From an uncultured Eubacteriales bacterium (GTDB lineage Bacteria; Bacillota; Clostridia; Oscillospirales; Ruminococcaceae), in NCBI GenBank assembly GCA_900319075.1, contig ONMZ01000022.1, positions 1 to 43,123 of the forward strand: DNA of 43,123 bases. Reading direction: 5' to 3'. The notes beneath the pieces were generated by a model. The model saw only the letters and a program-made list of their open reading frames with translations, ran no database searches and was not told where the DNA came from. Below are positions 4,676 to 38,673 of the stretch, piece after piece. The first letter of the stretch is position 1. Each line of letters starts with the position of its first letter. The translations under genes and the position numbers were made by a program.

Positions 4676-4677
4676 TA

Positions 4678-4708
4678 AAACTCCCTGTATATCTATACAG
4701 GGAGTTTT
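4678..4708 (+). terminator. Bidirectional terminator between recR and tadA
   Basis: Arms CTCCCTGTAT/ATACAGGGAG with a 4-base loop (4681-4704) are flanked by AAAA and TTTT. The hairpin serves the convergent recR (plus) and tadA (minus) genes. Confidence 0.9.
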
Positions 4709-4715
4709 ATTTATG

Positions 4716-6343: not shown

Positions 6344-6409
6344 CTCTCTTTCAGGTTACAGTATAACATATTTTTTTTCATAATTAAAGCCCTGAAGCTC
6401 TTTTTTTGC

Positions 6410-6443
6410 AAAAAAAAAGACCGAAAGCATCTGCATTCGGTCT
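6410..6443 (-). terminator. Terminator after the HD-domain gene
   Basis: On the minus strand, arms AGACCGAA/TTCGGTCT enclose a 10-base loop and are followed by a run of nine T. It lies just downstream of the HD-domain gene stop. Confidence 0.85.
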
Positions 6444-6452
6444 GATATTCAT

Positions 6453-6986
6453 TCAACTTGCTTTGCGCCGGGTTATTTTCTTTGCCTTCCTTTTCATAAC
6501 ATTGCCCAGATGCATACTTATTTCAAGCATAGCGGAATATTTATCTATGGCAACTATAACGTAGCTTTCCGCATATTTTGGCAGCTTTACGGTCAAAGGC
6601 CACATATGCTTTACTATCATGTCCTCCTCACGCTTGTCAACGTTGAAATGTGCCTTTGCATTTTCAAGGGCAGTCTGAGGGTGGGTGAAGCCGTGGGGTT
6701 TCTCACCGGGCTGTCTTTCTCTTGTACGCCAGTCGTACAAAAACAGATCATGTAAAAGTCCTGCCCTTGCAGCAGAACGTGCATCAAGCCCCAGCTTTCT
6801 GCAAACAAGATAGTTGTAATACGAAACGTTCAGACTGTGCTGAAAACAGGTAGTGCTGTAATGGTGACGGTAATTTTTCATCTCGTTGACAACATCGCTG
6901 TCAAGAAGGTCTTTTACAAAATCAAAGTATTCTTTGGTGTGATCTGAATGTTCTATATTATATCTGGAACCAATCGCTTTTGCCAT
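6453..6986 (-). CDS. HD-domain phosphohydrolase family protein
   Basis: A 177-residue soluble protein with the HD metal-dependent phosphohydrolase signature: H50 (FQHSLNVS), the H79-D80 doublet (GLLHDLFLYD), H102, H127 (KHMWP) and D148 (AIDKYS). HD proteins cleave phosphate esters of nucleotides or cyclic nucleotides; the substrate here cannot be told. The C-terminus is strongly basic (KRKAKKITRRK). ATG 6986 follows a GGAGG site. It is a single-gene unit with its own promoter and terminator. Confidence 0.85.
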   Translation of the reverse strand: MAKAIGSRYNIEHSDHTKEYFDFVKDLLDSDVVNEMKNYRHHYSTTCFQHSLNVSYYNYLVCRKLGLDARSAARAGLLHDLFLYDWRTRERQPGEKPHGFTHPQTALENAKAHFNVDKREEDMIVKHMWPLTVKLPKYAESYVIVAIDKYSAMLEISMHLGNVMKRKAKKITRRKAS

Positions 6987-9310: not shown

Positions 9311-9323
9311 TCAAAACACCTCT

Positions 9324-10211
9324 TTAACCGAGCTTTATGATCTGTGTGCCACTTGTTACCGGATCGCAGACCCAAGCCTGTGCATAATCGTTTTTTATTA
9401 TCTCAAGTGCAGCTTTTGCCTTTTGGGGATGATCGAACACCCCAAAGACAGCCGAGCCGCTGCCCGTCATAAGCGAGCCGAGCGCCCCTGCACCGAGCAG
9501 GTCGTCTTTTGCCTTGTGTATCTGTTTTTCCTGCGCTGCAAATTCAAGTGCGTTGAACATTTTGCCGCACATACCCTTTATATCGCCTTTGTTCAGCCTG
9601 CTGACAAACGCCTTGGTGTCGCATTTGGGCACATTTGTCAGACTGTCATACTTTTTGAATGCCTCAGGTGTTGATATGCTCACCTCCGGCTTTACCACAA
9701 CAAAAGCACATCTTGGCAGCGCAAGCTCAGTCATTATCTCGCCCACGCCCCTGCAAAGCTGCGTTCCGCCCTTGATACAAAACGGAACATCTGCGCCCAG
9801 CACCGCACCTATCTCAAAAAGCTGCTTTTTTTTGAGGTTCGTTTCAAACATCGTATCCAGAGCACAAAGGGTCGCCGCACAGTCTGCACTGCCCCCTGCC
9901 ATTCCCGCCATTGAGGGAAGTCGCTTTTCAACATTTACCGTGATACCGCCGGTTTTCAGGTTCGTGTACCTTTCAAAAGCCTCTATTGCCTTCCATATAA
10001 GGTTTGTTCTGTCTGTGGGGAACCACGCTTTTTCGCACAATATCTTATTTTCGCCTGTGCCGTTTACCTGAAGATCCAGCGTGTCAAACAGGCTCACCGA
10101 CTGCATCACCGTTTCAAGCTGGTGATAGCCGTCGGTGTTTATCCCAACGATGTCGAGCATCAGGTTCAGCTTGCCGAAGGCAACTGCCGTGCAGCTATTG
10201 TATCTTGCCAT
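9324..10211 (-). CDS. ispE: 4-diphosphocytidyl-2-C-methyl-D-erythritol kinase
   Basis: GHMP-family kinase of the non-mevalonate (MEP) isoprenoid pathway, 295 residues. Family features are the N-terminal substrate-binding segment with K14 and N16 (FGKLNLMLDI), the ATP-binding glycine-rich motif LPSMAGMAGGSADCAA (98-113), the GADVPFCIKGG segment and the C-terminal MTGSGSAVFG. It overlaps the end of the aminotransferase gene by 17 bases and has AGAGGA ahead of its ATG, so the two are coupled. The same pathway's IspH is encoded at 36.6 kb as part of a fusion. Confidence 0.95.
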   Translation of the reverse strand: MARYNSCTAVAFGKLNLMLDIVGINTDGYHQLETVMQSVSLFDTLDLQVNGTGENKILCEKAWFPTDRTNLIWKAIEAFERYTNLKTGGITVNVEKRLPSMAGMAGGSADCAATLCALDTMFETNLKKKQLFEIGAVLGADVPFCIKGGTQLCRGVGEIMTELALPRCAFVVVKPEVSISTPEAFKKYDSLTNVPKCDTKAFVSRLNKGDIKGMCGKMFNALEFAAQEKQIHKAKDDLLGAGALGSLMTGSGSAVFGVFDHPQKAKAALEIIKNDYAQAWVCDPVTSGTQIIKLG

Positions 10212-11379
10212 TTTTCAGTTCCTCTAAAAACTCACCTATGCGCTTGACGGCTTCACGCAGGTGATTTATGGAGTAAGCATAGGACACCCGTACAAAGCCC
10301 TCTCCGCAGCTGCCGAATGCATCGCCCGGCACCACAGCGACTTTCTTGCTGAAAATAAGCTTTTCACAGAATTCTGCACTGCTCAGACCTGTGCTTTTTA
10401 TACATGGGAACACATAGAATGCACCCTGTGGCGTAAAGCAGTCAAGCCCCAGTTTATTGAAAGCATCAACAACATAACGCCTTCTCATATCATATTCATT
10501 TTTCATCTTTTCTATGTCGCCGGTGCAGCTTTGCAGGGCTGTAACAGCGGCATACTGGCTCACAGTAGGAGAGCACATTATTGCGTACTGGTGAAGTTTC
10601 AGCAGCTGTGAAACGATAGGCTCCGGTCCGCCCACAAAGCCCAGACGCCAGCCGGTCATGGCAAAGCTTTTTGAAAATCCGTTTATTACTACCGTGCGTT
10701 CTCTCATACCTTCTATCTGAGCAAAGGAAACGTGTTTGCCTGAATATGTAAGCTCGGAATATATCTCGTCGGAAAGCACGATTATATTTGTATCCTTCAG
10801 CACCTGTGCGATGCTTTCAAGGTCCTCACGGCGCATTATCGCACCGGTCGGATTGTTGGGAAAGGGGAGGATAAGAAGCTTTGTTTTGTCGCTTATATTT
10901 TCCCTCAGCTCCTGTGCTGTAAGGCGGAACTCGTTTTCCACTTTGGTTTGAATGCCCACTGCCTTGCCGCCGCATATTTCCACTATGGGGGAGTAGCACA
11001 CAAAGCTCGGCTCAACCACCAGCACCTCATCTCCCGGCTCCACCATGCTGCGTATGCAAAGGTCGATACCCTCCGAGCCGCCCACCGTCACGATCACCTC
11101 GTGTTCTGGGTCGTAGTGAGTGTCGATGGTGCGTTCAAAGTATTTAGAGATCTCTTTTCTCAGCTCTATAAGCCCCGAATTTGCCGTATAGCAGGTCTTG
11201 CCCATTTCAAGCACATCTATTGCCTGCTTGCGTATAAGCCAGGGTGTTTTGAAGTCAGGCTCACCCACGCCCAGCGAGATCACGCCCTCCATTCCCTGAG
11301 CGATGTCAAAGAATTTTCTTATGCCTGAGGGTTTCATTTCCCGGATAGTCCTGCTAAGCGCCTTTTCGTAATCTATCAT
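10195..11379 (-). CDS. Class I/II PLP-dependent aminotransferase
   Basis: A 394-residue fold-type I aminotransferase. PLP contacts visible are N176 in PNNPTG, D204 and Y207 in SDEIYSEL, the Schiff-base lysine K237 in GFSKSFAMTGWR, and R245. The length and the N-terminal GVGEPDF motif match the aspartate/aromatic aminotransferase group. The true amino acid substrate cannot be read from sequence. Its ATG overlaps the stop of the Lrp/AsnC regulator by ATGA, suggesting that the regulator and enzyme act on the same amino acid. Confidence 0.93.
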   Translation of the reverse strand: MIDYEKALSRTIREMKPSGIRKFFDIAQGMEGVISLGVGEPDFKTPWLIRKQAIDVLEMGKTCYTANSGLIELRKEISKYFERTIDTHYDPEHEVIVTVGGSEGIDLCIRSMVEPGDEVLVVEPSFVCYSPIVEICGGKAVGIQTKVENEFRLTAQELRENISDKTKLLILPFPNNPTGAIMRREDLESIAQVLKDTNIIVLSDEIYSELTYSGKHVSFAQIEGMRERTVVINGFSKSFAMTGWRLGFVGGPEPIVSQLLKLHQYAIMCSPTVSQYAAVTALQSCTGDIEKMKNEYDMRRRYVVDAFNKLGLDCFTPQGAFYVFPCIKSTGLSSAEFCEKLIFSKKVAVVPGDAFGSCGEGFVRVSYAYSINHLREAVKRIGEFLEELKNGKIQ

Positions 11380-11852
11380 CAGAACATTCCTCTTTCGTCC
11401 TTTTCATCACTGCCTATAATTATGCCGTTATCTTTATACACCCTTAGTCCGAAATGGGTGGTAGTTTCCTGAACGGCGGCGATAGTTGCCAGACGCTGTG
11501 AAACGAAAAGGGAAATGTCTCTGATATTCTTTCCGGTGACCTCAACGATAATATCATATGTTCCCGACATAAGGCGCACAGCCTCTACCTGTTCATAGGC
11601 GGATATCTGCCGTGCGATCTCGTCAAAGCCGGACTGTGACTGGGGGGTAACTTTCAATTCGATAAGGGCAAATACGCTGTTGGGGTCATATGCGCTCTCG
11701 TCGATGATGGCGGTATAGCCTTGTATTATACCCTCGTTTTCCAGTCTTTCTATTTCCTGTTTTACCTCCTGTTCGCTTTTGCCCAGCATCACCGCAAGTT
11801 CGCTGTTGCTCATCCGGGCATTGCTTTTCAGAAGTCCGATAAGTCTGTCCAT
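11379..11852 (-). CDS. Lrp/AsnC family transcriptional regulator
   Basis: 157 residues: an N-terminal winged helix-turn-helix (LLKSNARMSNSELAVMLG...VKQEIERLENEGIIQGY) and a C-terminal RAM ligand-binding domain (ALIELKV...VRLMSGTYDIIVEV). Lrp-type proteins sense amino acids as octamers. I start at ATG 11852 because GGAGG lies just upstream; the longer frame reaches into the preceding DUF1294 gene. It is tightly linked to the aminotransferase downstream, which is the most likely regulated target. Confidence 0.92.
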   Translation of the reverse strand: MDRLIGLLKSNARMSNSELAVMLGKSEQEVKQEIERLENEGIIQGYTAIIDESAYDPNSVFALIELKVTPQSQSGFDEIARQISAYEQVEAVRLMSGTYDIIVEVTGKNIRDISLFVSQRLATIAAVQETTTHFGLRVYKDNGIIIGSDEKDERGMF

Positions 11853-11878
11853 TGTTCTTTCCCTCCGTTCAATAGGTT

Positions 11879-12166
11879 TTACATTACAAATATGCACACC
11901 CCTGCGATTATCCACAAAACAAGCAGGCATGGCACACAAAACAGAAATTTCAGCTTTCTTGTCTTATGGTGCCAAAAGAACATTCCGCAAAGGGAGCCTA
12001 TCCCTCCGCCGATGGCGGCAAACATTATAAGAGTCAGCTCGGGGATACGCCAGCGTTTTTTTCTTGCCCGCCTTTTGTCTATGCCGTAAGCGATAAACGC
12101 CGCAAGGTTGACTATGGCAAGGTACACCAGCACCCCGGTCATATGGTTTGTAAGAAAATATTTCAT
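11879..12166 (-). CDS. DUF1294 family small membrane protein
   Basis: A 95-residue protein with three hydrophobic segments and the DUF1294 hallmarks. These are Y-x-IDKRRARKKRWRIPE in the cytoplasmic loop, the GGGIGSLCGM helix and the W-HHKTRK-x2-F motif. Function is unknown in the literature I can recall. It starts 19 bases after the purL stop with a short GGAG site and is probably co-transcribed with purL. Confidence 0.87.
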   Translation of the reverse strand: MKYFLTNHMTGVLVYLAIVNLAAFIAYGIDKRRARKKRWRIPELTLIMFAAIGGGIGSLCGMFFWHHKTRKLKFLFCVPCLLVLWIIAGVCIFVM

Positions 12167-19850: not shown

Positions 19851-20666
19851 TTAAATGGAACTGTGTGTGCTTCGTATGTAATGGAAAAGATACTGCTGGG
19901 CTATGCCCTCAATGCCCTTTGTGCATTCCGGCAGACCGGCGGGATACCACTGTGCCATTACTCTTTTTACCCAAACGTCTTTAGGAAAAGCATCTGTGCG
20001 GTAAAACCCGAAAAGCAGCGCACAATCTGCCACCTTGGGACCTACGCCTTTTATCGTCATCAGCTTTTGCCTTGCCTCGTCAAGGGGCATATTTCGTACC
20101 GTCTTAAGCTCTATCTCGCCGCTGAGCACCTTTGAAACAGCGTCAACAAGGTATTTTGCACGAAAACCGGAGCGCAGATAGCCAAGGCTTTCAACCGTTT
20201 CATCTTTCATCATTTCGGCGCTTGGGTAGCCGCCGTAATGGCCGCACAAACGCCCGATTATGCCCTTTATACGGGGAATGTTGTTGTTCTGGCTGATTAT
20301 AAAGGAGGAAAGTGCCTCCCAGCTGTCCTGTTTCAGAATCCGTATACCGCCAGCGTAAGCACAAGCCTTTGAAAGGGTTGCGTCCTCGCTGAGCTGTGAT
20401 TTTAAACTGCCGTAATCTGTCCAAAGGTCAAAATAATCCGCCCAGACTTCAAAAAGCTCTTGTTCGTTAGTATCATGCAGGCGGAAAAGATCGCTGCCGT
20501 TTTCGCAGCTTATGGTCAGCTGCTTATTGAGGAATGCTCCGTGATAGGCGTTATCCGCAATTTTCTCCCACCTGAAAGCCTGACCGCAGTCAAGGGTATC
20601 GTCAAGGGCAAAGTCACTTTGGCGCAGCAAAATGTCCCTGCCGTCGATCTTATAGTCAATATCCAT
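19851..20666 (-). CDS. ogg: 8-oxoguanine DNA glycosylase (OGG1-type)
   Basis: Base-excision repair enzyme of the HhH-GPD superfamily, 271 residues from ATG 20666. It has the OGG N-terminal domain (D-x-GQAFRW), the IISQNNNI motif, the hairpin TIKGVGPKVADC with catalytic lysine K211, and the catalytic aspartate D230 in PKDVWVKR. The K...D pair and QNNN motif mark it as a bifunctional OGG1-like glycosylase rather than AlkA or EndoIII; no iron-sulfur cysteines are present. An upstream ATG at 20681 is in frame, but GGAG lies 9 bases before 20666, so the shorter start is better supported. Confidence 0.9.
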   Translation of the reverse strand: MDIDYKIDGRDILLRQSDFALDDTLDCGQAFRWEKIADNAYHGAFLNKQLTISCENGSDLFRLHDTNEQELFEVWADYFDLWTDYGSLKSQLSEDATLSKACAYAGGIRILKQDSWEALSSFIISQNNNIPRIKGIIGRLCGHYGGYPSAEMMKDETVESLGYLRSGFRAKYLVDAVSKVLSGEIELKTVRNMPLDEARQKLMTIKGVGPKVADCALLFGFYRTDAFPKDVWVKRVMAQWYPAGLPECTKGIEGIAQQYLFHYIRSTHSSI

Positions 20667-20742
20667 TATTTCACGCTCCATATTTCCGATTTTCCGGTGC
20701 TGCTGTGCATTTTTCCCATATCCCTTAATTTACATAAAATAC

Positions 20743-20771
20743 TTGAAAAGCCCTTTAAAATACATTATATT
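20743..20771 (+). promoter_or_regulatory. Possible promoter of the DUF6062 gene
   Basis: TTGAAA (20743-20748), 17 bases, TATATT (20766-20771), about 40 bases before the start codon. A TATAAT at 20771-20776 overlaps it but would need a 22-base spacer. Confidence 0.55.
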
Positions 20772-20810
20772 ATAATCAAGCCGATTTTTCAAGAGGAAAG
20801 GACAGGTTAT

Positions 20811-21491
20811 ATGAGAGAAAGTATACTTACAATACCCGTTACCGAGATCTTCGAGCCAAAGTGCGGCTGCCCCATATGCAGACTCAGGGATATGCTTGAA
20901 AGCAGGACGGTGGAGTACATAATGGGTGCGGCGATGATGGAGCCTGACGTGCGGATAGAAACGAATAAGCTTGGGTTTTGTCACCTCCACTTTGAGCAGA
21001 TGAGGGAGTGCAAAAACAGGCTGTCTCTTGCGCTTATGATACAAACGCACCTTCAGCATCTTCAGCAGGAGCTGTCAAAGAAAAGCTTGTTTCATGGCAA
21101 AAGCGCAAAGCGAAAGACTGTCTCGGCGGTGAACGAGAGCTGTTTTGTATGCTCAAAGATAGACTGGGGAATGAGCAGGATAATGCGGACACTGTTTGAG
21201 ATGTACCAGCAGCAGGAGGAGTTCAGAAAGCTGTTTGATGAGCAGCAGATGCTTTGCCTGCCCCATTATGAGCTGCTGATGGAAATGATGGAAACAAACC
21301 TTGACAAAAAGCTGCACAAGCAGTTTTCGCAAGCCTGCGGCGAGCTTATGAAAAAGTATCTTGATGAGCTTGAAAAGGACGTTTCACACTTTTGCAAGAT
21401 GTATGATTACCGAAACACGGGAGCGAATGCTGACTGGGGCAACTCAAAGGACTCGGTGGAGCGTGCCATAAAATTTCTGACCACACGATAA
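20811..21491 (+). CDS. DUF6062 family protein with duplicated CxxC...CxxH motif
   Basis: 226 residues, soluble, resembling the DUF6062 family of clostridia. Two pseudo-repeats are visible. C20-x2-C23 is followed 34 residues later by C57-x2-H60, and C111-x2-C114 by C149-x2-H152 35 residues later. Each set could bind one zinc. The hallmark string TVEYIMGAAMMEPDVR (33-48) is present. Most of the rest is predicted helical with a Gln/Glu-rich segment near 131-146. An AGAGGAAAGGA site precedes ATG 20811; the frame continues upstream only because the opposite-strand OGG gene leaves it open. Function is unknown. Confidence 0.82.
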   Translation: MRESILTIPVTEIFEPKCGCPICRLRDMLESRTVEYIMGAAMMEPDVRIETNKLGFCHLHFEQMRECKNRLSLALMIQTHLQHLQQELSKKSLFHGKSAKRKTVSAVNESCFVCSKIDWGMSRIMRTLFEMYQQQEEFRKLFDEQQMLCLPHYELLMEMMETNLDKKLHKQFSQACGELMKKYLDELEKDVSHFCKMYDYRNTGANADWGNSKDSVERAIKFLTTR

Positions 21492-22023: not shown

Positions 22024-22305
22024 ATGATCAAGGGTATAAATAAACAAATCATTGAGATAAAGTGTCCTAAAAATGAACAGTTTGAAAAGATTTTGTTGTT
22101 TGTGAACGCCGACAAAGCAGGGGCATCCGGGGTGGAAACGGACGAAAAAGCGAAATGCATTGCGAAAAGTTTTCTTGCAGAAAAAAGTGCCCACCACGGA
22201 GGGGTGAGTGTGAAATGTGCTTTGAAAAAACACAGCGGCGTTATCGGTCTGACTGTGGCAGGTGCTGCATTGACCACTCTGTGCTTAGTTCTCTTTTTCT
22301 TCTGA
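22024..22305 (+). CDS. Small tail-anchored protein of unknown function
   Basis: 93 residues. Residues 1-65 are hydrophilic with alternating strand and helix character (EIKCPKNEQFEKILLFVNADK). Residues 70-93 form one hydrophobic helix ending at the C-terminus (VIGLTVAGAALTTLCLVLFFF), so the protein should be anchored in the membrane with its N-terminal domain in the cytoplasm. A GGAG lies 12 bases before ATG 22024, which is a long spacing. I recognise no family. The context is notable: the motif array at 21825-21955 precedes it and a long RNA-like hairpin follows. Confidence 0.65.
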   Translation: MIKGINKQIIEIKCPKNEQFEKILLFVNADKAGASGVETDEKAKCIAKSFLAEKSAHHGGVSVKCALKKHSGVIGLTVAGAALTTLCLVLFFF

Positions 22306-22459: not shown

Positions 22460-22553
22460 CCCGGCTGCTCTGCAGGGGTACTGTTAAAATTGACGATATG
22501 ACATTATATAAGAAGGCAAATTGATAAAATTTCACGAAAATTCTCGAAAGCTA

Positions 22554-22582
22554 TTGGCTTTTGAGTTTTTTTGTGTTATAAT
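22554..22582 (+). promoter_or_regulatory. Promoter of rlmB operon
   Basis: TTGGCT (22554-22559), 17 bases, TATAAT (22577-22582), about 40 bases before the rlmB start. Confidence 0.65.
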
Positions 22583-22621
22583 AAATCGGTGTGTAATAAA
22601 AAGTTGGAAAGAGATAAAAAT

Positions 22622-23401
22622 ATGATAGAAAAAAACAGAGATAATGCAAAAATGGCTGAAACCGATCAGTGGGAAAGCCAGCTTATAGTTGGCAGAAATC
22701 CTGTGATCGAGGCTTTGAAGGCAGATAAACTCATAGATGTGATATATGTAAATTCCGCTGCCACAGGCTCGATAACACTTATCTGCAAAATGGCAAAGGA
22801 AAAGAATATCCTTGTAAAGCGGGTAAATGAGGTAAAGCTGAATAATATGGCAAAGGGCGCTTCGCATCAGGGAGTGATCGCTGTTGGAGCCTGTGCGGAA
22901 TATGTCGAGCCGCAGAGGCTTTTGGAGATAGCCTCTGAAAGGGGCGAGGATCCGTTTATTATCATTTGTGACGAGATAGAGGATCCCCACAATCTGGGTG
23001 CCATAATCAGGACGGCTGAGGCTGCGGGGGCGCACGGGCTGATAATTCCCAAGCGCAGGAGCGCAACGCTTAACCACACGGTTTTCAAATCCTCTGCCGG
23101 GGCGGCAAGCTGGCTGCCTGTGGCAAGGGTGGCAAATCTTGCTGCAACGGTGGATATGCTGAAGAAAAACGGAGTATGGATATTCGGAACGGATGGAAGC
23201 GGCGAAAGCTATGACAGGGTGAAAATAGACGGTCCGGTGGGACTGGTGATAGGTTCCGAGGGCTTTGGAATGAGCCGTTTGATGAAGGAAAAATGCGACT
23301 TTCTTTTAAGTCTTCCCATGGCGGGAAAGATAACCTCGCTCAACGCTTCGGTGGCGGCAGGAATATTTATGTATGAGATAGTAAGGCAGCGCAACAAATA
23401 A
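22622..23401 (+). CDS. rlmB: TrmH/RlmB family 23S rRNA 2'-O-methyltransferase
   Basis: SPOUT-class RNA 2'-O-ribose methyltransferase, 259 residues. The N-terminal substrate-binding part (VGRNPVIEAL at 23-32) is followed by the knotted SpoU domain. Its motifs are D-x-IEDPHNLGAIIRTAEAAGAHG (motif 1), GLVIGSEGFGM (motif 2) and LPMAGKITSLNASVAAGI (motif 3). The best match is RlmB, which methylates G2251 of 23S rRNA, but other TrmH members cannot be excluded. I use ATG 22622 (GGAAAGAGAT site) rather than the upstream in-frame start at 22571, which overlaps the promoter. The next gene follows after 19 bases. Confidence 0.92.
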   Translation: MIEKNRDNAKMAETDQWESQLIVGRNPVIEALKADKLIDVIYVNSAATGSITLICKMAKEKNILVKRVNEVKLNNMAKGASHQGVIAVGACAEYVEPQRLLEIASERGEDPFIIICDEIEDPHNLGAIIRTAEAAGAHGLIIPKRRSATLNHTVFKSSAGAASWLPVARVANLAATVDMLKKNGVWIFGTDGSGESYDRVKIDGPVGLVIGSEGFGMSRLMKEKCDFLLSLPMAGKITSLNASVAAGIFMYEIVRQRNK

Positions 23402-23420: not shown

Positions 23421-25886
23421 TTGGATAAGGATTTCTCAATCGAAGAGCTTTTATCTGAATATAACGAAAGACTGGACAGGCTTGGAGGGAAAAAGAAAGA
23501 GCCTGAAAAGGAGCCTGAGGAGCCTGCGGAGGAAAGCGCTGAGCAGGTAAAGGCTATGGCAGGCTTTACCTCGGAATTTGACAGCCAGCCGGACAGGTGG
23601 ATCCCGCCGGAGAGCCAGGAGGAGATAAAACCTGTTATCCCCCAGCAGCTGCCGGAGGATGAGATCGGGCAGAAAGATGACCAGCCGGCGGATCAGAACG
23701 AGTTTACACGCAGTACCGGCAATCCGGACGAGCTGCCTGCGGATATGCCTGCCGAGCAGGAGCTTATCCAGCAGATGGGTGAGCAGGATCAGCAGCAGGA
23801 CGAACAGGAAGAACGCAGAGAAAGAAACGAGCGCAACGCCGCAGTTATCAGCAACCTGTCCAAGATGAAAAAGCAGAAAACAAGACGTGGAGAGAATGTT
23901 TCACCAAAAAACAGAGCAAGCCTTAAAGATCTGAAGCTGGGTCTTACAGGCAAGATCATACCAAAGACAGAGGAATTTGACAAGGCGCAGATACCCGATA
24001 ATAACACCAGCTTTGAGGAGCGCTCGGAGTTTTTGTCCAAACGCAGACGCAAAAAGGTGGAAAATTTCAGGCTGGATACCGATGAGACAGGCGGTGAGAC
24101 CGTTGACAGGACCCCGGGCGGCAAGACGGCTTCGAGGGACGAATTTGAAAGCTTTGAACAGGCGCCTGAGCTTTTGTCGGATATTCTTGAGCTGAAAATG
24201 AGCCTGCGCCGCAGACTTCTGGTGCTTGTTATTGCGGCGGCTCTGGGAATACTTCTTACGCTGGCAAACGATTTCAGGATAGCGCTTTTGAGCATATTCG
24301 ACAGAACTGTTCACCCGGCAGTCTATACGGTGCTGAACGTGTTGTTGGGAGGCGTGGCCGTCTTTGAGGGCTATACGGTCATCAGGTCGGGAATAAAAAA
24401 TCTTATCAACGCAAATGCGGATTGTGATTCCATTGCGGCGATAGGAATGATAAGCGGATTGTTCTCCGGCTTTATGGCTCTTTTCTCCACAGGCTCGGTA
24501 AGCGGAAGATATTATCACATATACATAGTTGTGGGCATAGTCGGACTTGTTTGCAACACTATCGGCAAGCTCCTGATAGTGGACCGCACGGAAAACAATT
24601 TCAGATATATCGCCGGAGAGTACGACAGATACGCTGTGAAAACAGTGGAAAACGAAGATGTTGCGGCAAACTTCACCCAGGGATATGTTGACGAATATCC
24701 TATGCTTGCAAAGATGCAGAAAACAGAGTTTGTCAAGGACTTTATGAAAAACAGCTACTGTACAGATGCTGCGGACGCCCTTTCAAGGAGAGTAAGCCCG
24801 ATGATACTGCTGTGCGGACTGCTTCTGGGTCTTTTGTCCTTTGTGTTTGACAAGGGAGCGTCTTCGCCGGTGGATAAGATACTTGTGGCTCTGGCAGCTT
24901 ATGCGGGAACGGTAAGCATGTGCTCGTCGGCAGCGCTGATATTCGTTGTGAATATCCCTATGACAAGAGCATCTCAGAAATATCTGAAACACTCGGCAAT
25001 AATGATGGGATATAATTCGGTGGACGAGTTTTCACAGACCAACTCTGTGCTTGTTGAAGCAAAACAGCTTTTCCCCATGGGAATGGTCGACTTTATCAAA
25101 CTCAAGATGCTTTCCACCACCTCTCTTGAGGAATGTATACTTATGGCAGCAAGCCTTTCATGTCAGGCGGACAGCGTGCTGAAATCTGCCTTTTATAAGA
25201 TGCTGCGTGGAAAGACAGAGATGCTTTATCCTGTGGAAAGCTATATATATGAGGACGGACAGGGTCTTTCGGGCTGGATAGAGAATAAAAGGATACTCCT
25301 TGGGACCAGAGAGCTTATGGAAAACCACTCTATCGAGGGACTTCCCCCCCTTGCAAAGGAAATAGAGTACGCAGGAGAAAATGCTGCGGTTTATCTGTCC
25401 ATCTCCGGCGTTGTTACCACTCTTTTTGTGGTCAGGGCAGTTGCGAGCCCTTCCATCTCCAGCTGGATGCAGGAGCTTGAAAATGAGGGCGTTGTTACGG
25501 TGATAAGGACGGTGGACAGCTTCCTTACCAAGGACTTTATCTGTGATTCATTCGGCATTGAACCCGCAAGTATAAAATTTCTGCCTTTCAGGTATCATAA
25601 GGATTATGACGAGCAGACGGATTATGTTCCCAAAACACCTGCGTCGATGGTATGCAGCGGCCATTTCCAATCCCTGGCTATGCTTATACTGGGAGCAAAA
25701 AGGCTTAAAAACGCAGCAGATCTTGGAGTGGCTTTCCAGTTCGGCGGTATGACAATGGGCGCACTTTTATGCCTTATAATGAGTATAACCGGAGCGTTTG
25801 CCCAGATAAGCGCATCTGCGGTGCTGGGGTATAATATGCTTATGGTGATCGTTGCGATGCTCGTTCAGCAGTTCAAAAAGGTTTAA
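23421..25886 (+). CDS. P-type-ATPase-like membrane protein without catalytic motifs
   Basis: 821 residues. Residues 1-255 are a hydrophilic, probably disordered Glu/Gln/Lys-rich cytoplasmic extension. Hydrophobic helices follow near 264-282, 286-315, 337-357, 365-385, 460-476 and 486-511, then a cytoplasmic region (515-770), then two more at 776-796 and 800-816. The order matches metal-type (P1B) P-type ATPases. The CPC-A-L segment aligns with CSSAALIFVVNIP (501-513). The phosphorylation motif DKTGTLT is replaced by EAKQLFP (546-552), the nucleotide-domain G-x-G signature by EDGQGLSGWI...LLGTRELM (611-633), and the GDGxND hinge by LGAKRLKNAADLGVAF (757-772). It cannot form the aspartyl-phosphate and is presumably a non-transporting relative. 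Start TTG 23421 with CGGGAG 10 bases upstream. Confidence 0.72.
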   Translation: MDKDFSIEELLSEYNERLDRLGGKKKEPEKEPEEPAEESAEQVKAMAGFTSEFDSQPDRWIPPESQEEIKPVIPQQLPEDEIGQKDDQPADQNEFTRSTGNPDELPADMPAEQELIQQMGEQDQQQDEQEERRERNERNAAVISNLSKMKKQKTRRGENVSPKNRASLKDLKLGLTGKIIPKTEEFDKAQIPDNNTSFEERSEFLSKRRRKKVENFRLDTDETGGETVDRTPGGKTASRDEFESFEQAPELLSDILELKMSLRRRLLVLVIAAALGILLTLANDFRIALLSIFDRTVHPAVYTVLNVLLGGVAVFEGYTVIRSGIKNLINANADCDSIAAIGMISGLFSGFMALFSTGSVSGRYYHIYIVVGIVGLVCNTIGKLLIVDRTENNFRYIAGEYDRYAVKTVENEDVAANFTQGYVDEYPMLAKMQKTEFVKDFMKNSYCTDAADALSRRVSPMILLCGLLLGLLSFVFDKGASSPVDKILVALAAYAGTVSMCSSAALIFVVNIPMTRASQKYLKHSAIMMGYNSVDEFSQTNSVLVEAKQLFPMGMVDFIKLKMLSTTSLEECILMAASLSCQADSVLKSAFYKMLRGKTEMLYPVESYIYEDGQGLSGWIENKRILLGTRELMENHSIEGLPPLAKEIEYAGENAAVYLSISGVVTTLFVVRAVASPSISSWMQELENEGVVTVIRTVDSFLTKDFICDSFGIEPASIKFLPFRYHKDYDEQTDYVPKTPASMVCSGHFQSLAMLILGAKRLKNAADLGVAFQFGGMTMGALLCLIMSITGAFAQISASAVLGYNMLMVIVAMLVQQFKKV

Positions 25887-27232: not shown

Positions 27233-27964
27233 ATGTGTGAAAGCAGCGAAAAGGAAGCTTGTGTGCAGGAGGAAAAAAGGGACGATATATTGGAATTCGG
27301 CAGCGTGATGCTGTCAAATGCAAAGCACAATATCCATTGTCTGAACATAATCGGACAGGTGGAGGGTCACTATATCCTTCCGGCACAGAACAAGACCACA
27401 AAGTATGAACATATAATACCTGCTCTGGTAGCTATCGAGCAGGACAGGACCATTGAGGGACTGGTAATTATCCTTAACACCGTAGGCGGCGACGTGGAAG
27501 CCGGACTTGCCATTTCAGAGCTTATCGCAAGCATGAAAACTCCCACGGTTTCCCTTGTGGTGGGGGGAGGGCACTCTATCGGCGTTCCTTTGGCGGTGAG
27601 TGCAAAAAGGTCGTTTATTGTTCCAAGCGCAACTATGACCATCCACCCTGTAAGGATGAACGGAACAGTGTTGGGAGTTCCCCAGACCCTTTCCTACTTT
27701 GACAAGATGCAGGAAAGGATCGTGCGGTTCGTTTGCCACAATTCAAAAATGTCACCGGAGCGTTTCAGAGAGCTTATGCTCGCCACCGGACAGCTCGTTA
27801 TGGACGTGGGCTCGGTCATTGACGGAGAAACGGCTGTGAGAGAGGGTCTTATAGATGAGCTTGGGGGACTTAGCGATGTTATAGAATGTCTGTACGATAT
27901 GATAGAAAACAGTTCGGAAAAAGAGGTGATAGGCTGTGATCTTCACGGTGATCGACCTTTATGA
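27233..27964 (+). CDS. tepA: ClpP-fold serine peptidase, TepA-like
   Basis: 243 residues in the ClpP/crotonase-fold peptidase group. The ClpP-type N-V-G-G-x-V-E-A-G-L motif (82-91) is present. The catalytic serine is S115 in GGGHSIGVPLA and the catalytic histidine is H138 in TIHPVR; the aspartate is expected further on. TepA of Bacillus is a membrane-associated ClpP relative linked to protein translocation. The order tepA-small gene-ftsK/spoIIIE is also found around Bacillus tepA and spoIIIE, which supports the call; here uppP is inserted. An AGAAGGAGAG site precedes ATG 27233. Confidence 0.85.
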   Translation: MCESSEKEACVQEEKRDDILEFGSVMLSNAKHNIHCLNIIGQVEGHYILPAQNKTTKYEHIIPALVAIEQDRTIEGLVIILNTVGGDVEAGLAISELIASMKTPTVSLVVGGGHSIGVPLAVSAKRSFIVPSATMTIHPVRMNGTVLGVPQTLSYFDKMQERIVRFVCHNSKMSPERFRELMLATGQLVMDVGSVIDGETAVREGLIDELGGLSDVIECLYDMIENSSEKEVIGCDLHGDRPL

Positions 27965-28112
27965 TGTGTTTAGGACCGACCTTTTCCCCTGCACCCAGTG
28001 CAACCCCTGCACCCATTGCAACCCCTGCACCTATTGCAGGGAGCAAAAGCGAAGGGAAATGTTCAGCACCTGTCCGGGGGATTATCTGAGTAAGGACGGA
28101 TTTTATCTTTAG
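27936..28112 (+). CDS. 58-residue cysteine-repeat peptide, possibly YlzJ-like
   Basis: A short gene beginning at GTG 27936 with a strong AGAGGTGAT site (27922-27930) and a 29-base overlap with the end of the TepA-like gene. The product starts MIFTVIDLYDVF and then has six cysteines at every third position: C-T-Q-C-N-P-C-T-H-C-N-P-C-T-Y-C (19-34). The DNA of this part is an 18-base tandem repeat, about 2.7 copies. A further cysteine lies at C46. In Bacillus the gene at this place is ylzJ, whose product also begins MILYT, so it may be a YlzJ-family member with an inserted repeat. Function is unknown; metal binding is plausible. Confidence 0.68.
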   Translation: MIFTVIDLYDVFRTDLFPCTQCNPCTHCNPCTYCREQKRREMFSTCPGDYLSKDGFYL

Positions 28113-28146
28113 AAAAATGATATAAATTGTGTGGGAGGAAATAATA

Positions 28147-29010
28147 ATGAGTTTGATAAGTGCCATATTCCAGGCTATCATTCAGGGACTTACAGAGTTT
28201 CTGCCGGTTTCCAGCTCGGGACATCTTTCTCTTTATCAGCATTTTACCGGCAACAGCGGAGAAGGAGCACTTTTCTTTTCTGCGGTCCTGCACCTGGGCA
28301 CCCTGCTTGCGGTGTTTGTTGCATACCGTGTAAGGATCATAAATATGATAAAAGAGTTTTTCTCCATGATAGGGGATATAAGCCACAAGAAGTTTTCGCT
28401 CAAAGAGGCTAACGCCGACAGAAGAATGGTGGTCATGGTCATCGCTTCTACCCTTTGTCTGCTGCCTTTTGCTATATTCAAGGGCTGGTTCGAGTCGGTG
28501 GCGGAGGATTCAAGCATTTTTGCAGAGGGTCTTTGCTTTTTGTACACCGCAGCGATCCTTTTCCTTTCCACAAAATGCATGAACGGCAGAAAAAAGGCAG
28601 GCAATATCACCGGGAGAGATTCGGTGGTCATAGGACTTTTCCAGGGAGTCGCTTTGCTTCCGGGAGTTTCAAGGTCAGGCTCTACCATAAGCGCCGGACT
28701 TTTCTGCGGCTTGTCAAGAGCTACGGCTGTGGAGTATTCCTTTATCCTGGGAATGCCTGCAATACTTGCAGGCTGTCTGTCTGAGCTTTTGAAGGCAATA
28801 AAGGAAGGGGCAGCTATCCAGTGGGGTCATTGCTTTATTGGTTTTGTAGTTGCTGCCGCTGTGGGTCTGGGTGCTATCAAGCTTATAAACTGGCTGGTAA
28901 AGTCAGACAGGTTCAAGATATTTGCCATCTATACCTTGGCTTTGGGCGGCGTTGTGCTGCTTATCTCCATAATCGAGGCAATAAAGGGCTCGCCTATCAC
29001 TTTTGCATAA
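28147..29010 (+). CDS. uppP: Undecaprenyl-diphosphatase
   Basis: Integral membrane phosphatase (BacA family) that regenerates undecaprenyl phosphate for cell-wall synthesis and confers bacitracin tolerance, 287 residues. Both active-site motifs are present: GLTEFLPVSSSGHL (14-27) and PGVSRSGSTISAG (about 174-186). Several hydrophobic helices follow the usual pattern. I start at ATG 28147 because GGGAGGA lies 7 bases upstream; a GTG at 28129 is in frame but has no site. A terminator follows. It fits with the penicillin-binding protein and lipid genes further on. Confidence 0.96.
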   Translation: MSLISAIFQAIIQGLTEFLPVSSSGHLSLYQHFTGNSGEGALFFSAVLHLGTLLAVFVAYRVRIINMIKEFFSMIGDISHKKFSLKEANADRRMVVMVIASTLCLLPFAIFKGWFESVAEDSSIFAEGLCFLYTAAILFLSTKCMNGRKKAGNITGRDSVVIGLFQGVALLPGVSRSGSTISAGLFCGLSRATAVEYSFILGMPAILAGCLSELLKAIKEGAAIQWGHCFIGFVVAAAVGLGAIKLINWLVKSDRFKIFAIYTLALGGVVLLISIIEAIKGSPITFA

Positions 29011-29026
29011 TACATAGCATATATGA

Positions 29027-29059
29027 CAAAAAAGTCTGAAAGGGTTTTCAGACTTTTTT
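29027..29059 (+). terminator. Terminator after uppP
   Basis: Arms AAAAAAGTCTGAAA/TTTCAGACTTTTTT around a short loop, ending in T6. Confidence 0.92.
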
Positions 29060-29100
29060 GCGACTTTTAACAGTTATTTTTGAAAGGAAAATGTTTTAAT

Positions 29101-31785
29101 ATGGCGGCAAAAAACACTTCGGCTACCACAAAAAAGAATACCGCTAAAAAGACCTCGGGTGCAAAGACTGCTGCTAAAAAGACAGCTGCAAAGACCAAAA
29201 CAGGCGCTAAAAAGTCCGCAGCAAACACAGACGCAAGAAAAAATGTCAAGACCAGAGAGAACCGGAGATTCTGGTCGTTTATCCTGTTCTTTTTCGGGAT
29301 ATTCGAGCTTTTTGCGACTTTTATCAAAGGCGACGGTCTGTGGTTCAAACTTTACAGCTTCAACAGAGGTATGTTCGGCATATCTGTGTTCCTCCTTGCA
29401 CCTATGTTTATTTATGTTGCGCTGATGATAGCTTCGGACTATACAAAAAATACCCTTCTTGCGAAAGTTATTGAGGGGACTGTGCTTATGCTCCTTTTCA
29501 GTGCAGCAGCCCAGATAATCATGGTTGGAAGCGTTGAGGGAAGCTCGGTGGCAAGAAAGCTGGAATGGCTTTTTGATAACGGTAAAAAGCTGAACGGAGG
29601 CGGCGTAGCAAGCGCAGCACTGGGCTGGCCGCTGCTTGCCCTTTTCAAGCGTGTGGGCGCAGCGATAATCATACTTCTTATGATCTTTACCTTTATCATG
29701 CTCCTTACGGATCTGACCTTGCCCCAGCTTTTCAGAGCCATCTCAAAGCCCTTTAAAAAGGGCTACGATGCGGTCAACGAGGAAAGATATAACCGTGCGG
29801 AAAGAGCGGAGAATAAAGCTCAGAACAATCCCCACGCCCCTGCGGCACAAAGACAGGATATGCCCCAGGGATCACCTTTCAAAGCTCATAAGGCGCCAAG
29901 GAGACGTCTGCGTAAGGGCAAGTCAGACGCAGAGGTGGACTTTGCAAGGTATCTTGAACAGGAAAAGAAGGAAAGAGAGCTTCAGCAGAGAGAGGGCGTG
30001 CCCGATTACATAGAGTACGACTATATGGATATTGATCCGAAACAGCTGCCGGAGCTTGATATAAAGCCTAAGGCGGAAAAGGAAGAAAGCAAGGAGAACG
30101 AACAGGATAAAAAGGACCTTCAGGATATAATAGCCAAAGCGGTGGAAAGAGCGGGACAGCCGAAGGAGGAACCCGTGGATAAAAACGAAGAGCTGCCTTT
30201 GCAGACCGAGCAGCCGGATCAGGTGGAGGTCCATGTGGAAAAAAGCGGCCAGACCACCCTTTTTGAGCAGGAGGAAAAGGTGCCTGCATATGTAAATCCC
30301 CCTGTGGATATACTTAAATACGCAAAGAGCAAGGTGCCTAGTGAGGTCACTCAGGAGGAGATAAACGAAAAGGCGGACAAGCTTGTGTCCACACTGGAGA
30401 CCTATGCCGCCAAGGCAAGGATAGTGGGAGTTTTCCACGGTCCTTCGGTAACAAGATACGAGATCGAGCCCGCAGCCGGAGTGAGGGTGAACAAGATAAC
30501 CGGTCTTTCAGAGGATATTGCCCTTAACCTTGCTGCCACCAGCGTTCGTATCGCACCTGTACCGGGCAAACCGTGTATCGGTGTCGAGGTGCCAAATACC
30601 CACAGGGAAATGGTGTCCCTGCGTGAGCTTATCGACAGCGAAGAGTACCGTAACGCAAAGGGCAAGCTTACCTTTGCGGTGGGCAAGGATATCGAGGGCA
30701 ACATCGTTATCGGTGACATTGCAAAAATGCCGCATCTGCTTGTTGCAGGTACTACCGGCTCAGGTAAATCGGTGTTTACAAACTCTATTATCCTAAGTAT
30801 TTTGTACCACGCTTCTCCCGACGAGGTCAAGCTTATACTTATTGACCCTAAGAAGGTGGAATTTCCTATATACAACAATATACCTCATCTGCTTATCCCT
30901 GTTGTTACCGAGCCGCTGAAGGCCGCAGGTGCGCTGGGCTGGGCACTTAACGAAACTATCAAGCGTTACAACAGGCTGGAGGCGAACCATGTCAAAAGCT
31001 TGTTTGAGTATAATGCGATGGTCAAGCAGGAGCGGAAAAAGCCGGAGGATCAGCGTAATGAGGAGATAGCAAAGCTTGATATACTGCCTCAGATAGTTAT
31101 TGTTATCGACGAGTTTGCCGACCTTATGATGGCGGCAAAGAGCGAGGTGGAGGATACCGTATGCCGTATCGCCCAGATCGCAAGAGCCGCAGGCATACAC
31201 ATGATAATTGCCACACAGTCCCCGAGAAAGGACGTTATTACGGGACTTATCAAGTCAAATATCCCATCAAGGGTCGCATTGAGCGTTTCCAGCATTATGG
31301 ATTCACGTGTTATTTTTGACTACGGCGGAGCGGAAAAACTCCTTGGCAACGGAGATCTGCTTTACAAGCCGGTGGGTGTTAAAAACCCCATAAGAATACA
31401 AAGCGGATATGCCTCCACTGAGGAGATAAGCGCAGTTGTGGAGTTTCTCAAAAGCGAGCACCCAACACAGTACAGCGAGGAAGTTATGCACGGGGTCGAG
31501 GAGAATATTCCGCAGGTCAAAGGAACTTCGGACGACGGCGGTTCGGATAGTGTTGTGGTAAACGCCGATGACGAGCTTATAGATCAGGCTATCTCCATAA
31601 TAGTCCAGACGGGACAGGCATCTACATCCTTTTTGCAAAGAAAGCTTAAACTTGGCTTTTCAAGGGCGTCACGCATTATGGACGAGATAGAGGAAATGGG
31701 GATCATAGGCCCCCAGGAAGGCTCTAAGCCCAGAGAGGTGCTTATAAGCCAGCAGGAATGGATAGAAATGAGAGCAAGAAGATAA
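29101..31785 (+). CDS. ftsK: DNA translocase FtsK/SpoIIIE
   Basis: Septum-located DNA pump, 894 residues. The N-terminus (2-45) is an unusual Lys/Ala/Thr-rich tail resembling histone H1 tails. About four membrane helices follow (near 60-210), then a charged linker (to about 390). The motor carries Walker A GTTGSGKS (550-557), Walker B IVIVIDEFADLMM and the IPSRVAL segment. A C-terminal gamma winged-helix domain (QASTSFLQRKLKLGFSRASRIMDEIE) reads polar sequences on the chromosome. AAAGGA precedes ATG 29101; a TTG at 29080 is in frame but has no site. Whether it serves vegetative division, sporulation or both is unknown. Confidence 0.95.
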   Translation: MAAKNTSATTKKNTAKKTSGAKTAAKKTAAKTKTGAKKSAANTDARKNVKTRENRRFWSFILFFFGIFELFATFIKGDGLWFKLYSFNRGMFGISVFLLAPMFIYVALMIASDYTKNTLLAKVIEGTVLMLLFSAAAQIIMVGSVEGSSVARKLEWLFDNGKKLNGGGVASAALGWPLLALFKRVGAAIIILLMIFTFIMLLTDLTLPQLFRAISKPFKKGYDAVNEERYNRAERAENKAQNNPHAPAAQRQDMPQGSPFKAHKAPRRRLRKGKSDAEVDFARYLEQEKKERELQQREGVPDYIEYDYMDIDPKQLPELDIKPKAEKEESKENEQDKKDLQDIIAKAVERAGQPKEEPVDKNEELPLQTEQPDQVEVHVEKSGQTTLFEQEEKVPAYVNPPVDILKYAKSKVPSEVTQEEINEKADKLVSTLETYAAKARIVGVFHGPSVTRYEIEPAAGVRVNKITGLSEDIALNLAATSVRIAPVPGKPCIGVEVPNTHREMVSLRELIDSEEYRNAKGKLTFAVGKDIEGNIVIGDIAKMPHLLVAGTTGSGKSVFTNSIILSILYHASPDEVKLILIDPKKVEFPIYNNIPHLLIPVVTEPLKAAGALGWALNETIKRYNRLEANHVKSLFEYNAMVKQERKKPEDQRNEEIAKLDILPQIVIVIDEFADLMMAAKSEVEDTVCRIAQIARAAGIHMIIATQSPRKDVITGLIKSNIPSRVALSVSSIMDSRVIFDYGGAEKLLGNGDLLYKPVGVKNPIRIQSGYASTEEISAVVEFLKSEHPTQYSEEVMHGVEENIPQVKGTSDDGGSDSVVVNADDELIDQAISIIVQTGQASTSFLQRKLKLGFSRASRIMDEIEEMGIIGPQEGSKPREVLISQQEWIEMRARR

Positions 31786-36588: not shown

Positions 36589-38673
36589 ATGTTAACAAAG
36601 TGTAAAATTTCTGTCGCAGCAACAGCAGGATTTTGTTTTGGTGTAGACAATGCCGTAAAAATAGTGTATAATGAACTGGATAAGCGAAATAATGTGGTCA
36701 CACTCGGACCCATCATCCATAATTCCGACGTGGTGGAGGATCTGCGTCAAAAGGGCGCAGTACCGGTGGAGCTTGAACAGGTCCGTGAAGGACAGACTGT
36801 TATCATCCGCTCGCACGGAGTCGGTCTTGACGTCTATGAAAAGCTTGAACGAGCCGGCGCACAGATCGTGGATGCCACCTGCCCGTTTGTGGCAAGGATC
36901 CACAGTATAGCCTTTGAAAAGTCAAAGGAAGGATGTACGGTACTTATCGCAGGGGACGGACAGCACCCTGAGGTAAGGGGCATTATGGCTCATTGTGTGG
37001 GAGAAAGCTATGCTTTCACAAACCTTGAAGAGCTTGAAAGTCTGGTCAGACAAAAGGACCTTGAGGGAAAAAAGACAGTCCTTTTGGCGCAGACGACCTT
37101 TAACAGAGCCGTCTGGGAGGAATGCAGCGCAGCGGCGGATAAGCTGCTGGGAAATGTGGAGATATTCCAGACCATATGCAGTGCGACCAACGAAAGACAG
37201 CGTGAAACAGGAGAGCTTGCCAGGCAAAGCGACCTTATGGTCATAGTCGGAGGCAGACACAGCTCAAACACGCATAAGCTGTATTCAATAGCACAGCAGT
37301 ATTGTACAAGCGTTCTGGTGGAGAACGCAAAAGAACTTCGTCAGTGCCGGTTAAAGCTTGACGCAGTGAGATCCGTAGGGATTTCCGCAGGTGCCTCAAC
37401 ACCTGCTTATATAATCAAGGAGGTAGAACAAACCATGAGTGATTTACTGAATAATGTTGATGAGGAATTTAACTGGGAAGAGGAGATGGAAAAATCTCTG
37501 AAGCCAATACATATCGGAAAGAGAGTAACAGGTATCGTGCTGTCGGTGAACAATAACGAAGTTTATGTTGACCTTGGCACCAAGCAGCAGGGCATGATCC
37601 CGGCAAGCGAGCTGAGTGATGACCCGAGCAAAAAGCCTGAGGATATTGTAAGCGTTGGCGATGAGCTTGATCTTATCGTTCTTAAGACCAATGACCAGGA
37701 CGGCGTTGTAACACTTTCAAAGAAAAAGGTGGATGCTGCCGCAGGCTTTGAGAAGATCGTTGCCGCAAAAGAGGCTGACGAAGTGCTTACAGGCGTTGTT
37801 ACAAACGTTATCAAGGGCGGCGTGCTTGTATCATGCAACGGTGTAAAGGTATTCGTTCCTGCATCTCAGGCTGCTCCAAAGAGAGATTTCAACCTTGATG
37901 AGCTGCTGAAAAAGGAAGTTGAGTTCAAGATCCTTGAGGTCAACGAGGCTAAGCAAAGAGCAGTCGGTTCCATCAGGATCGTTGCAAGAGAGGCAAAGGC
38001 TGCCGCACAGACAAAGTTCTTTGAGAACACCCAGCCGGGCGAAGAAGTTGAGGGCGTTGTTAAATCTATTACAGATTACGGCGTATTCGTAGATCTTGGC
38101 GGTGTAGACGGACTTGTCAGAAGAATAGATCTTTCATGGAACAGAGACAAGCATCCTTCCGAGGTGGTTTCTGTCGGAGATAAGATCACAGTAAGGATCA
38201 AGGATATTGATACCGAAAACAAGAAGATATCTCTGATCTATAAGAAGGATTCCGAGAATCCTTGGGAGATATTCAAGGCAAATTATGAGGTAGGTCAGGT
38301 AGTTAAGGCAAAGATCGTTTCTATCACAGCCTTTGGTGCGTTCGCACAGATCATTGAGGGTATCGACGGTCTTATCCATATCTCACAGATCGCCAATAAG
38401 AGGGTTGACAATGTCAACGATATACTCACAGTTGGAGAAGAGGTAGAGTGTAAGATCACCGAGATCGATCCTGATAAGAAGCGTATAAGCCTGTCTATCA
38501 GAGCCCTGCTCCCTGAGGAAGAGCAAGAGGTACAGGCTGCTGAGCAGCAGGAGGATGAAGTACAGCAGACTCCTGATGAACAGGCTGAACAGCAAGAAGT
38601 TCCTGCACAGGATGAACCTGCTGCACAAGAGGCTGCTGAGCAGGCGCCTGCTGATGAAACAACAGACGCTTAA
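36589..38673 (+). CDS. ispH-rpsA: IspH (HMBPP reductase) fused to ribosomal protein S1
   Basis: 694 residues. Residues 1-282 are IspH, the last MEP-pathway enzyme, with iron-sulfur ligands C16 (GFCFGV), C98 (DATCPF) and C197 (ICSATNERQ), and catalytic residues H44, H76, H126 and E128. Residues 305-640 hold four S1 RNA-binding domains, beginning near IGKRVTGIVLSV, VLTGVVTNVIKGG, EEVEGVVKSITDYG and GQVVKAKIVSITAFG. The C-terminal 50 residues are Glu/Gln-rich and acidic. This bifunctional arrangement is known in clostridia. It starts on the base after the Cmk-PlsC stop codon, and a terminator follows the gene. Confidence 0.95.
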   Translation: MLTKCKISVAATAGFCFGVDNAVKIVYNELDKRNNVVTLGPIIHNSDVVEDLRQKGAVPVELEQVREGQTVIIRSHGVGLDVYEKLERAGAQIVDATCPFVARIHSIAFEKSKEGCTVLIAGDGQHPEVRGIMAHCVGESYAFTNLEELESLVRQKDLEGKKTVLLAQTTFNRAVWEECSAAADKLLGNVEIFQTICSATNERQRETGELARQSDLMVIVGGRHSSNTHKLYSIAQQYCTSVLVENAKELRQCRLKLDAVRSVGISAGASTPAYIIKEVEQTMSDLLNNVDEEFNWEEEMEKSLKPIHIGKRVTGIVLSVNNNEVYVDLGTKQQGMIPASELSDDPSKKPEDIVSVGDELDLIVLKTNDQDGVVTLSKKKVDAAAGFEKIVAAKEADEVLTGVVTNVIKGGVLVSCNGVKVFVPASQAAPKRDFNLDELLKKEVEFKILEVNEAKQRAVGSIRIVAREAKAAAQTKFFENTQPGEEVEGVVKSITDYGVFVDLGGVDGLVRRIDLSWNRDKHPSEVVSVGDKITVRIKDIDTENKKISLIYKKDSENPWEIFKANYEVGQVVKAKIVSITAFGAFAQIIEGIDGLIHISQIANKRVDNVNDILTVGEEVECKITEIDPDKKRISLSIRALLPEEEQEVQAAEQQEDEVQQTPDEQAEQQEVPAQDEPAAQEAAEQAPADETTDA

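Follow-up and report, generated by a model that had tools for sequence, protein, structure and literature searches.

A candidate non-pumping P1B-type ATPase encoded beside rlmB across an order of gut bacteria

What work is left to a copper pump that has lost the chemistry of pumping? The question is raised by contig ONMZ01000022.1 of an uncultured Eubacteriales bacterium (order Oscillospirales, family Ruminococcaceae; assembly GCA_900319075.1). Its forward strand, positions 1 to 43,123, is the stretch analyzed here (the window, 43,123 nucleotides). A gene at 23421..25886 encodes a protein that the initial annotation, made from the DNA letters, described as a P-type ATPase fold without its phosphorylation site, seemingly kept in the genome as a protein that does not pump and might be a sensor or scaffold. 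We find that motifs are lost for each step of the phosphorylation cycle and for the metal path, that selection on the gene is strong, and that it is present order-wide; these observations, and a kept P1B fold, support the idea of a non-pumping protein under maintenance. That this pseudo-pump does not pump is well supported by sequence. We infer, more cautiously, that it hydrolyses no ATP and may act as a sensor or scaffold.

Loss of the pump motifs across the order

We compared 133 distinct members of the family with 27 canonical pumps. The two sets were split by the DKTGT motif, since 21 canonical pumps scored as family by whole-protein score, and the split is circular for DKTGT itself. When membership was assigned by coverage alone (at least 400 model positions), DKTGT occurred in 0 of 132 full-length members, and the 27 canonical pumps matched in part only, with up to 128 bits. 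A truncated copy, locus L051 (565 amino acids, no DKTGT), was left out of the 132 for lack of coverage. Homologues with an intact DKTGT, which the initial annotation had named as evidence that would count against it, were thus looked for and none was seen among these members.

In the window protein, EAKQLFP (residues 546-552) does stand in place of DKTGTLT. The last three positions have become a motif of the family's own: L in 111, F in 123 and P in 122 of the 133. The DKTGT Lys, Gly and second Thr are found in none of the 133 and the first Thr in five. The position of the phosphorylated Asp, 546, holds Glu in 13 members, Asp in 90 and another residue in 30. Hence, of the two features whose constancy had been in question, the absence of the motifs holds order-wide but Glu 546 does not.

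The other catalytic motifs fare no better. TGES, CPC, GDGxND, the N-domain His of the HP motif and the Glu before it are each present in 27/27 canonical pumps and 0/133 family members; the window protein has S580 and S585 at the N-domain positions. The Lys of LPxxK survives in one member. Of the M5 motif N..YN, the first Asn is kept in 10 of 133, the Tyr in one and the last Asn in none, the window residues being G769, G776 and M777. CPC had been read as CSS; its absence stands, but the alignment places CPC over S502-S503-A504 rather than C501-S502-S503, an immaterial shift of one residue. Domain lengths have changed as well. The A-domain stretch between flanking landmarks is 70 residues (54-78) in the family versus 135 in canonical pumps. 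From the TGD Asp to M5 there are 71 residues (0-74, the zero being taken as a truncated copy) versus a canonical median of 103, so that about 32 P-domain residues are missing, and with them, as had been proposed, the GDGxND hinge.

How widely is this condition shared? Of 61 related genomes, 59 gave matches in an initial search, some of these being second matches to ordinary pumps. An order-wide profile of 34 members (A3) then matched 240 of 247 genomes of the order, representing 132 of 135 genera, at E 1e-60 or better, almost all of the sampled genomes having a single strong match. Among the seven misses, G349 has a divergent match downstream of rlmB (model positions 5-574, E 8.5e-56). In G204 the contig ends some 420 bases from rlmB, and the pseudo-pump gene would fall past that point. 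The other five lack both the pseudo-pump gene and rlmB.

The family was not detected outside the order in our class and phylum samples; the samples share some genomes. In the class sample, six genomes of the order scored above 500 bits over nearly the whole model; the best of 141 genomes outside the order reached 130 bits, over model positions 216-502 only, with an ordinary pump. In the phylum sample, three of 249 genomes matched at E 1e-40, all three belonging to the order; 226 of the non-matching genomes are unlisted and their individual kinship is unchecked. Going by record names for the best 80 of 415 encoding stretches, members occur in Ruminococcus (R. albus, R. bicirculans) and in further Oscillospiraceae. 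A tree parts the 133 family from the 27 canonical sequences at one split with support 1.0. Its midpoint root falls inside the family, however, so the tree does not show family monophyly.

Could the gene serve sporulation? Spo0A was found above cut-off in 86 of 97 genomes, and all 11 others keep the pseudo-pump gene (one of them, G046, has a partial Spo0A match at a contig end); the four genomes of the 97 without the pseudo-pump gene all have Spo0A. Since the gene is not restricted to Spo0A genomes, we rejected this link.

Predicted fold, retained residues and selection

Structure prediction had been set as a possible refutation of the P-type assignment. It instead gave a P-type fold: the predicted model and fold comparison show P1B architecture with eight-helix topology, and the N domain matches 2voy_J at 2.4 A over 114 residues. 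CopA-like sequence similarity spans M3 to the P domain, and D336-S337 and G382-K383 in the MA-M2 region are common to canonical P1B pumps. The gene and its parts, all on the + strand, are as follows.

23421..25886, +: pseudo-P1B-ATPase gene; 821 amino acids, TTG start, no internal stop
23433..23462, +: N-terminal motif FSIEELLSEY (residues 5-14), with a predicted helix at 7-20
23484..24125, +: charged linker (residues 22-235); predicted local distance difference test score (pLDDT) below 50 at 22-123 and from 220, helices at 121-154 and 198-216
24153..24614, +: membrane helices MA, MB, M1 and M2 (residues 245-398), from the predicted model
24615..24767, +: shrunken A domain (residues 399-449), no TGES, from length and alignment
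24768..24989, +: M3-M4 (residues 450-523), CPC absent, from alignment
25056..25076, +: EAKQLFP (residues 546-552) at the DKTGTLT site, LFP being the family's own motif, from alignment
25110..25439, +: N domain (residues 564-673); G615 and G628 kept, canonical Glu and His lost, from alignment and fold match
25440..25664, +: remaining P domain (residues 674-748); TGD D699 kept, GDGxND segment missing, from alignment and length
25665..25883, +: M5-M6 (residues 749-821); canonical M5 N..YN lost, from model and alignment

The frame is intact, as annotated. Database matches to the protein are faint and point one way. It has no Pfam match at E 1, and the NCBIfam CopA model gives E 9.1e-10 and 37 bits, far under its cut-off of 1316. 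The best solved relative is LpCopA (3rfu), at E 5.1e-11 over residues 457-723 (phmmer versus PDB). A 23-member family profile brings the same structure to E 6.8e-19 and matches 11 distinct sequences, all named copper- or cation-transporting ATPases; conversely, 23/23 members match the NCBIfam CopA model at 0.01. The sole superfamily model seen in Pfam, the general HAD hydrolase, matched three of the 23 at E 0.0057 or weaker. Neither Pfam, PHROGs nor PADLOC has a model for the family, nor does NCBIfam above cut-off. A defence or phage origin was dropped, there being no PADLOC or PHROGs match at 0.01.

What has been kept, and what is new? Canonical residues persist: G613 in 95, G615 in 132, G628 in 133 and the TGD Asp D699 in 131 of 133. 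The first three, the N-domain GxG and the Gly that follows it, are all present in the window protein. We take the N-domain glycines, Glu and His to line the ATP site of CopA. New conserved positions are E611 (108 of 133), D612 (112), W619 (109), R624 (108), H636 (108), K562 (119) and P642 (125), and polar residues R265, D336, S337 and K383 are conserved in the membrane part. Among the folded parts of canonical pumps the N domain varies most (entropy 1.54 versus 0.74-1.41); in the family it varies least (1.75), together with the LFP segment (1.80), and the rest lies at 2.20-2.31.

Purifying selection on the gene is strong, as the proposed dN/dS check made clear. The ratio (omega, Nei-Gojobori) for the folded part is 0.04 in the comparison with a 91%-identical relative, where dS is 0.63; five more pairs with dS below 1 give 0.02-0.06. 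Within these six pairs, omega is 0.01-0.03 for the N domain and 0.11-0.20 for the N-terminal 235 residues. Comparisons with dS above 1, saturated or nearly so, were left out.

Two copies of the gene look broken: L036 (in G058) at 4164-6560, by an in-frame TGA, and L143 at 9175-11948, by a frame break. Each could be a sequencing error or a true break.

The N-terminal extension and the rlmB neighborhood

A disordered tail of about 255 residues had been described. A hydrophilic extension is present, with D, E, K or R at 97 of its first 240 residues, but it measures about 244 residues before the first membrane helix (which starts near 245), is not all disordered, and shares its start motif with many members. 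The model has helices at 7-20, 121-154 and 198-216, and pLDDT falls below 50 at 1-5, 22-123, parts of 155-183 and 220-238. The motif, of the type F-S-V-D-D-I-L-x-E-Y, usually comes four or five residues in from the start. Of 117 distinct open reading frames (ORFs), 54 have it by a strict pattern; by a looser one, it is present at 47 of 80 Ruminococcus-type loci. The TTG start stands at the same place in many Ruminococcus-type members (23421, L071-L148), others having ATG or GTG; it might limit expression.

Perhaps the motif is a docking signal common to other proteins? Only two other ORFs carry it near the N terminus. They lie in L036 and L143, immediately ahead of what remains of the family gene, and we read both as front parts of broken family copies. 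In 477,105 residues located past position 100 of other ORFs, the motif does not occur. A DNA pattern for it had one match in the window's genome, the pseudo-pump gene, and 43 matches in 25 of 41 genomes versus 14 for a reversed control pattern. Thirty of the 43, plus the window-genome match, were examined as loci: matches within about 50 residues of the first start codon all belong to this family, and the remainder fall inside other frames; the one exception, L214, is a 36-codon frame that lacks a start. For the genomes and loci covered, we rejected a shared docking signal.

The gene had been placed between rlmB and a lipoprotein gene. It sits between both, and rlmB is a conserved neighbor, but the lipoprotein-like gene is matched in closest relatives only and was dropped as a partner. 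Upstream lie:

22571..23401, +: rlmB, SpoU-family rRNA methyltransferase (PF00588, 1.1e-43), 19 nucleotides upstream of the pseudo-pump gene; the rlmB profile alignment (A4) begins at 22616
22543..22582, +: terminator-like hairpin and promoter-like site before rlmB, consensus matches only

Across the region, promoter-like sites number 17 versus 8.8 expected and terminator-like sites 12 versus 6.8. A same-strand upstream rlmB was found at 28 of 30 loci (L001-L030), 28 of 30 (L031-L060) and 79 of 80 (L071-L150), with median gaps of 18-21 nucleotides; some species occur in more than one set, and L030 and L031 are one and the same locus. The widest gaps, of 1107 and 804 nucleotides, belong to L036 and L143, where the broken gene's front part lies in between. 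Five loci lack an adjacent rlmB, three at contig edges and two (L035, L054) true misses. At E 1e-50, rlmB is absent from six of 247 genomes, and five of the six, including both sampled genomes of the genus g163, also lack the pseudo-pump gene. Read by eye, an EF-G-like ORF directly follows the pseudo-pump gene at 6 of 30 distant loci, and an ABC-transporter ATPase ORF occurs in 7 of 30 at scattered positions.

Several other features of the window were recorded, all on the + strand. A 93-residue ORF at 22024-22305, with a hydrophobic C terminus and no Pfam match above cut-off, lies upstream of rlmB in many relatives. A DUF6062 protein (20460-21491) is near rlmB in many Ruminococcus-type loci, sometimes on the opposite strand. 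A ClpP-like protein followed by BacA/UppP and FtsK (27233-31785) keeps its order in the closest relatives, and LytB/IspH is fused with S1 RNA-binding domains at 36589-38673. The bacterial small signal recognition particle RNA (Rfam RF00169, 1968-2067) overlaps the start of a long dnaX ORF when that ORF is drawn from the earliest start codon; dnaX itself probably begins further in.

Competing explanations and known systems

We think it probable that the family is an ancient, order-wide pseudo-P1B-ATPase that does not pump and has been retained as a sensor or scaffold anchored in the membrane. A copper-type ATPase would have been stripped of its phosphorylation chemistry and its metal path, in the simplest account before the order diversified, while the eight-helix membrane protein was kept; selection would now act chiefly on the cytosolic N domain and the LFP segment and, in many members, on the N-terminal motif on its long tether. 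The preserved N domain and the N-terminal motif suggest binding and recruiting as the work. The N domain, with two old glycines and the new E611-D612, W619, R624 and H636, may bind a ligand or protein, and the motif may recruit a cytosolic partner to the membrane, possibly in RlmB's rRNA or ribosome sphere. A functional link to RlmB is suggestive only. A bolder version is speculative and rather unlikely: the whole order would depend on a dead copper pump turned sensor, whose rebuilt pocket (E611, D612, W619, R624, R630, H636 and the glycines) would bind a nucleotide-like signal and whose FSxDDILxEY helix, on a disordered tether, would capture an rRNA-maturation partner encoded in the same operon as RlmB.

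A number of observations weigh against the sensor or scaffold reading. The model was built from an alignment of close relatives and is silent on binding. Asp at the phosphorylation position in 90 of 133 members makes some acyl-phosphate chemistry possible in those other members. The conservation pattern is weaker in 47 distant members (N domain 2.33, P1 2.31, M5-M6 2.55, others 2.66-2.85), and the entropies are uncorrected for relatedness, with uneven sampling and many sequences from Ruminococcus. By the strict pattern 63 of 117 ORFs lack the N-terminal motif, and by the looser one 33 of 80 Ruminococcus-type loci do. At two of the 30 order-wide loci rlmB is not adjacent, and G277 has the pseudo-pump gene and no detected rlmB. 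Adjacency may be inherited gene order, and because the genes are neighbors, their co-absence is explicable by one deletion or a missing contig.

Might the protein still be a cryptic pump, hydrolysing ATP through an altered loop (Glu or Asp at 546) and moving metal along an altered path? Its P1B fold, D699, G615, G628 and frequent Asp at 546 would suit such a pump. It would nevertheless have to work with the DKTGT Lys, Gly and second Thr, TGES, CPC, the N-domain Glu and His and GDGxND missing from all 133 members, the first DKTGT Thr and the LPxxK Lys nearly so, the M5 residues lost, A and P domains shortened to match, and neither acid at 546 in 30 members. We consider this very unlikely. To decay, whether as a pseudogene or by recent loss, we give almost no credence. 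The lost motifs and the breaks in G058 and L143 are what decay would leave, but the other best matches listed in the initial search have open frames, omega is 0.02-0.06, and the gene persists in 240 of 247 genomes with DKTGT in 0 of 132 members; recent decay is rejected on these grounds.

Two further alternatives remain. The protein could be a dedicated RlmB or ribosome partner that holds rRNA modification or ribosome assembly at the membrane. The conserved neighbor, the co-absence in five of six genomes and the downstream EF-G-like ORFs argue for this, but neighboring genes need not have physically linked products, G277 has the gene and no detected rlmB, and rlmB is widespread in other orders that lack the pseudo-pump gene. 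We see here a minor but real chance. By analogy with dead transporters that regulate live ones, the protein could also, without pumping, conduct lipids, ions or peptides, or serve as an inhibitory subunit of another transporter. The kept membrane part and its conserved R265, D336, S337 and K383 are consistent with such a role; the membrane helices are, however, less constrained than the N domain, and no transporter gene is conserved at a fixed adjoining place, the ABC-like ORFs being scattered. We regard this as improbable.

Dead relatives of kinases and proteases are well-known regulators. Is there a precedent among P-type ATPases? The open-licence literature that we searched yielded no description of this family and no comparable bacterial branch. 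The passages seen of a review of subfamilies P1-P6 treat DKTGT as the signature and mention no dead bacterial branch (PMC10654040). The pseudo-pump is like those subfamilies in its superfamily fold and unlike them in lacking that signature. The nearest precedent that we found for a P-type fold without a visible cycle is human TMEM94. It is reported to have a P-type-like fold with A-, P- and N-like domains, ten helices and no TGES, to keep an Asp proposed as the phosphorylation site, and to have shown no catalytic cycle in six structures (PMC12134183). Compared by description rather than sequence, TMEM94 resembles the pseudo-pump in its fold and absent TGES; it differs in being eukaryotic, in its ten helices and in retaining the proposed Asp. 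We take the protein named ERMA to be TMEM94. A later paper, on ERMA, lists TMEM94 and reportedly names ERMA a real endoplasmic reticulum Mg2+ ATPase (PMC13322241).

The closest comparison is with the CopA-type P1B-ATPases themselves (LpCopA 3rfu, ATP7B, HMA4). The pseudo-pump shares their eight helices, A/P/N layout, N-domain glycines and TGD Asp. Unlike them, it is without DKTGT, TGES, CPC, HP and GDGxND, its A domain is halved, its P domain is about 32 residues shorter, and it carries a long charged N-terminal tether. It is a testable candidate for a core function of this gut order and, set beside CopA, a natural experiment in which the N domain of a pump is preserved without the catalytic cycle.
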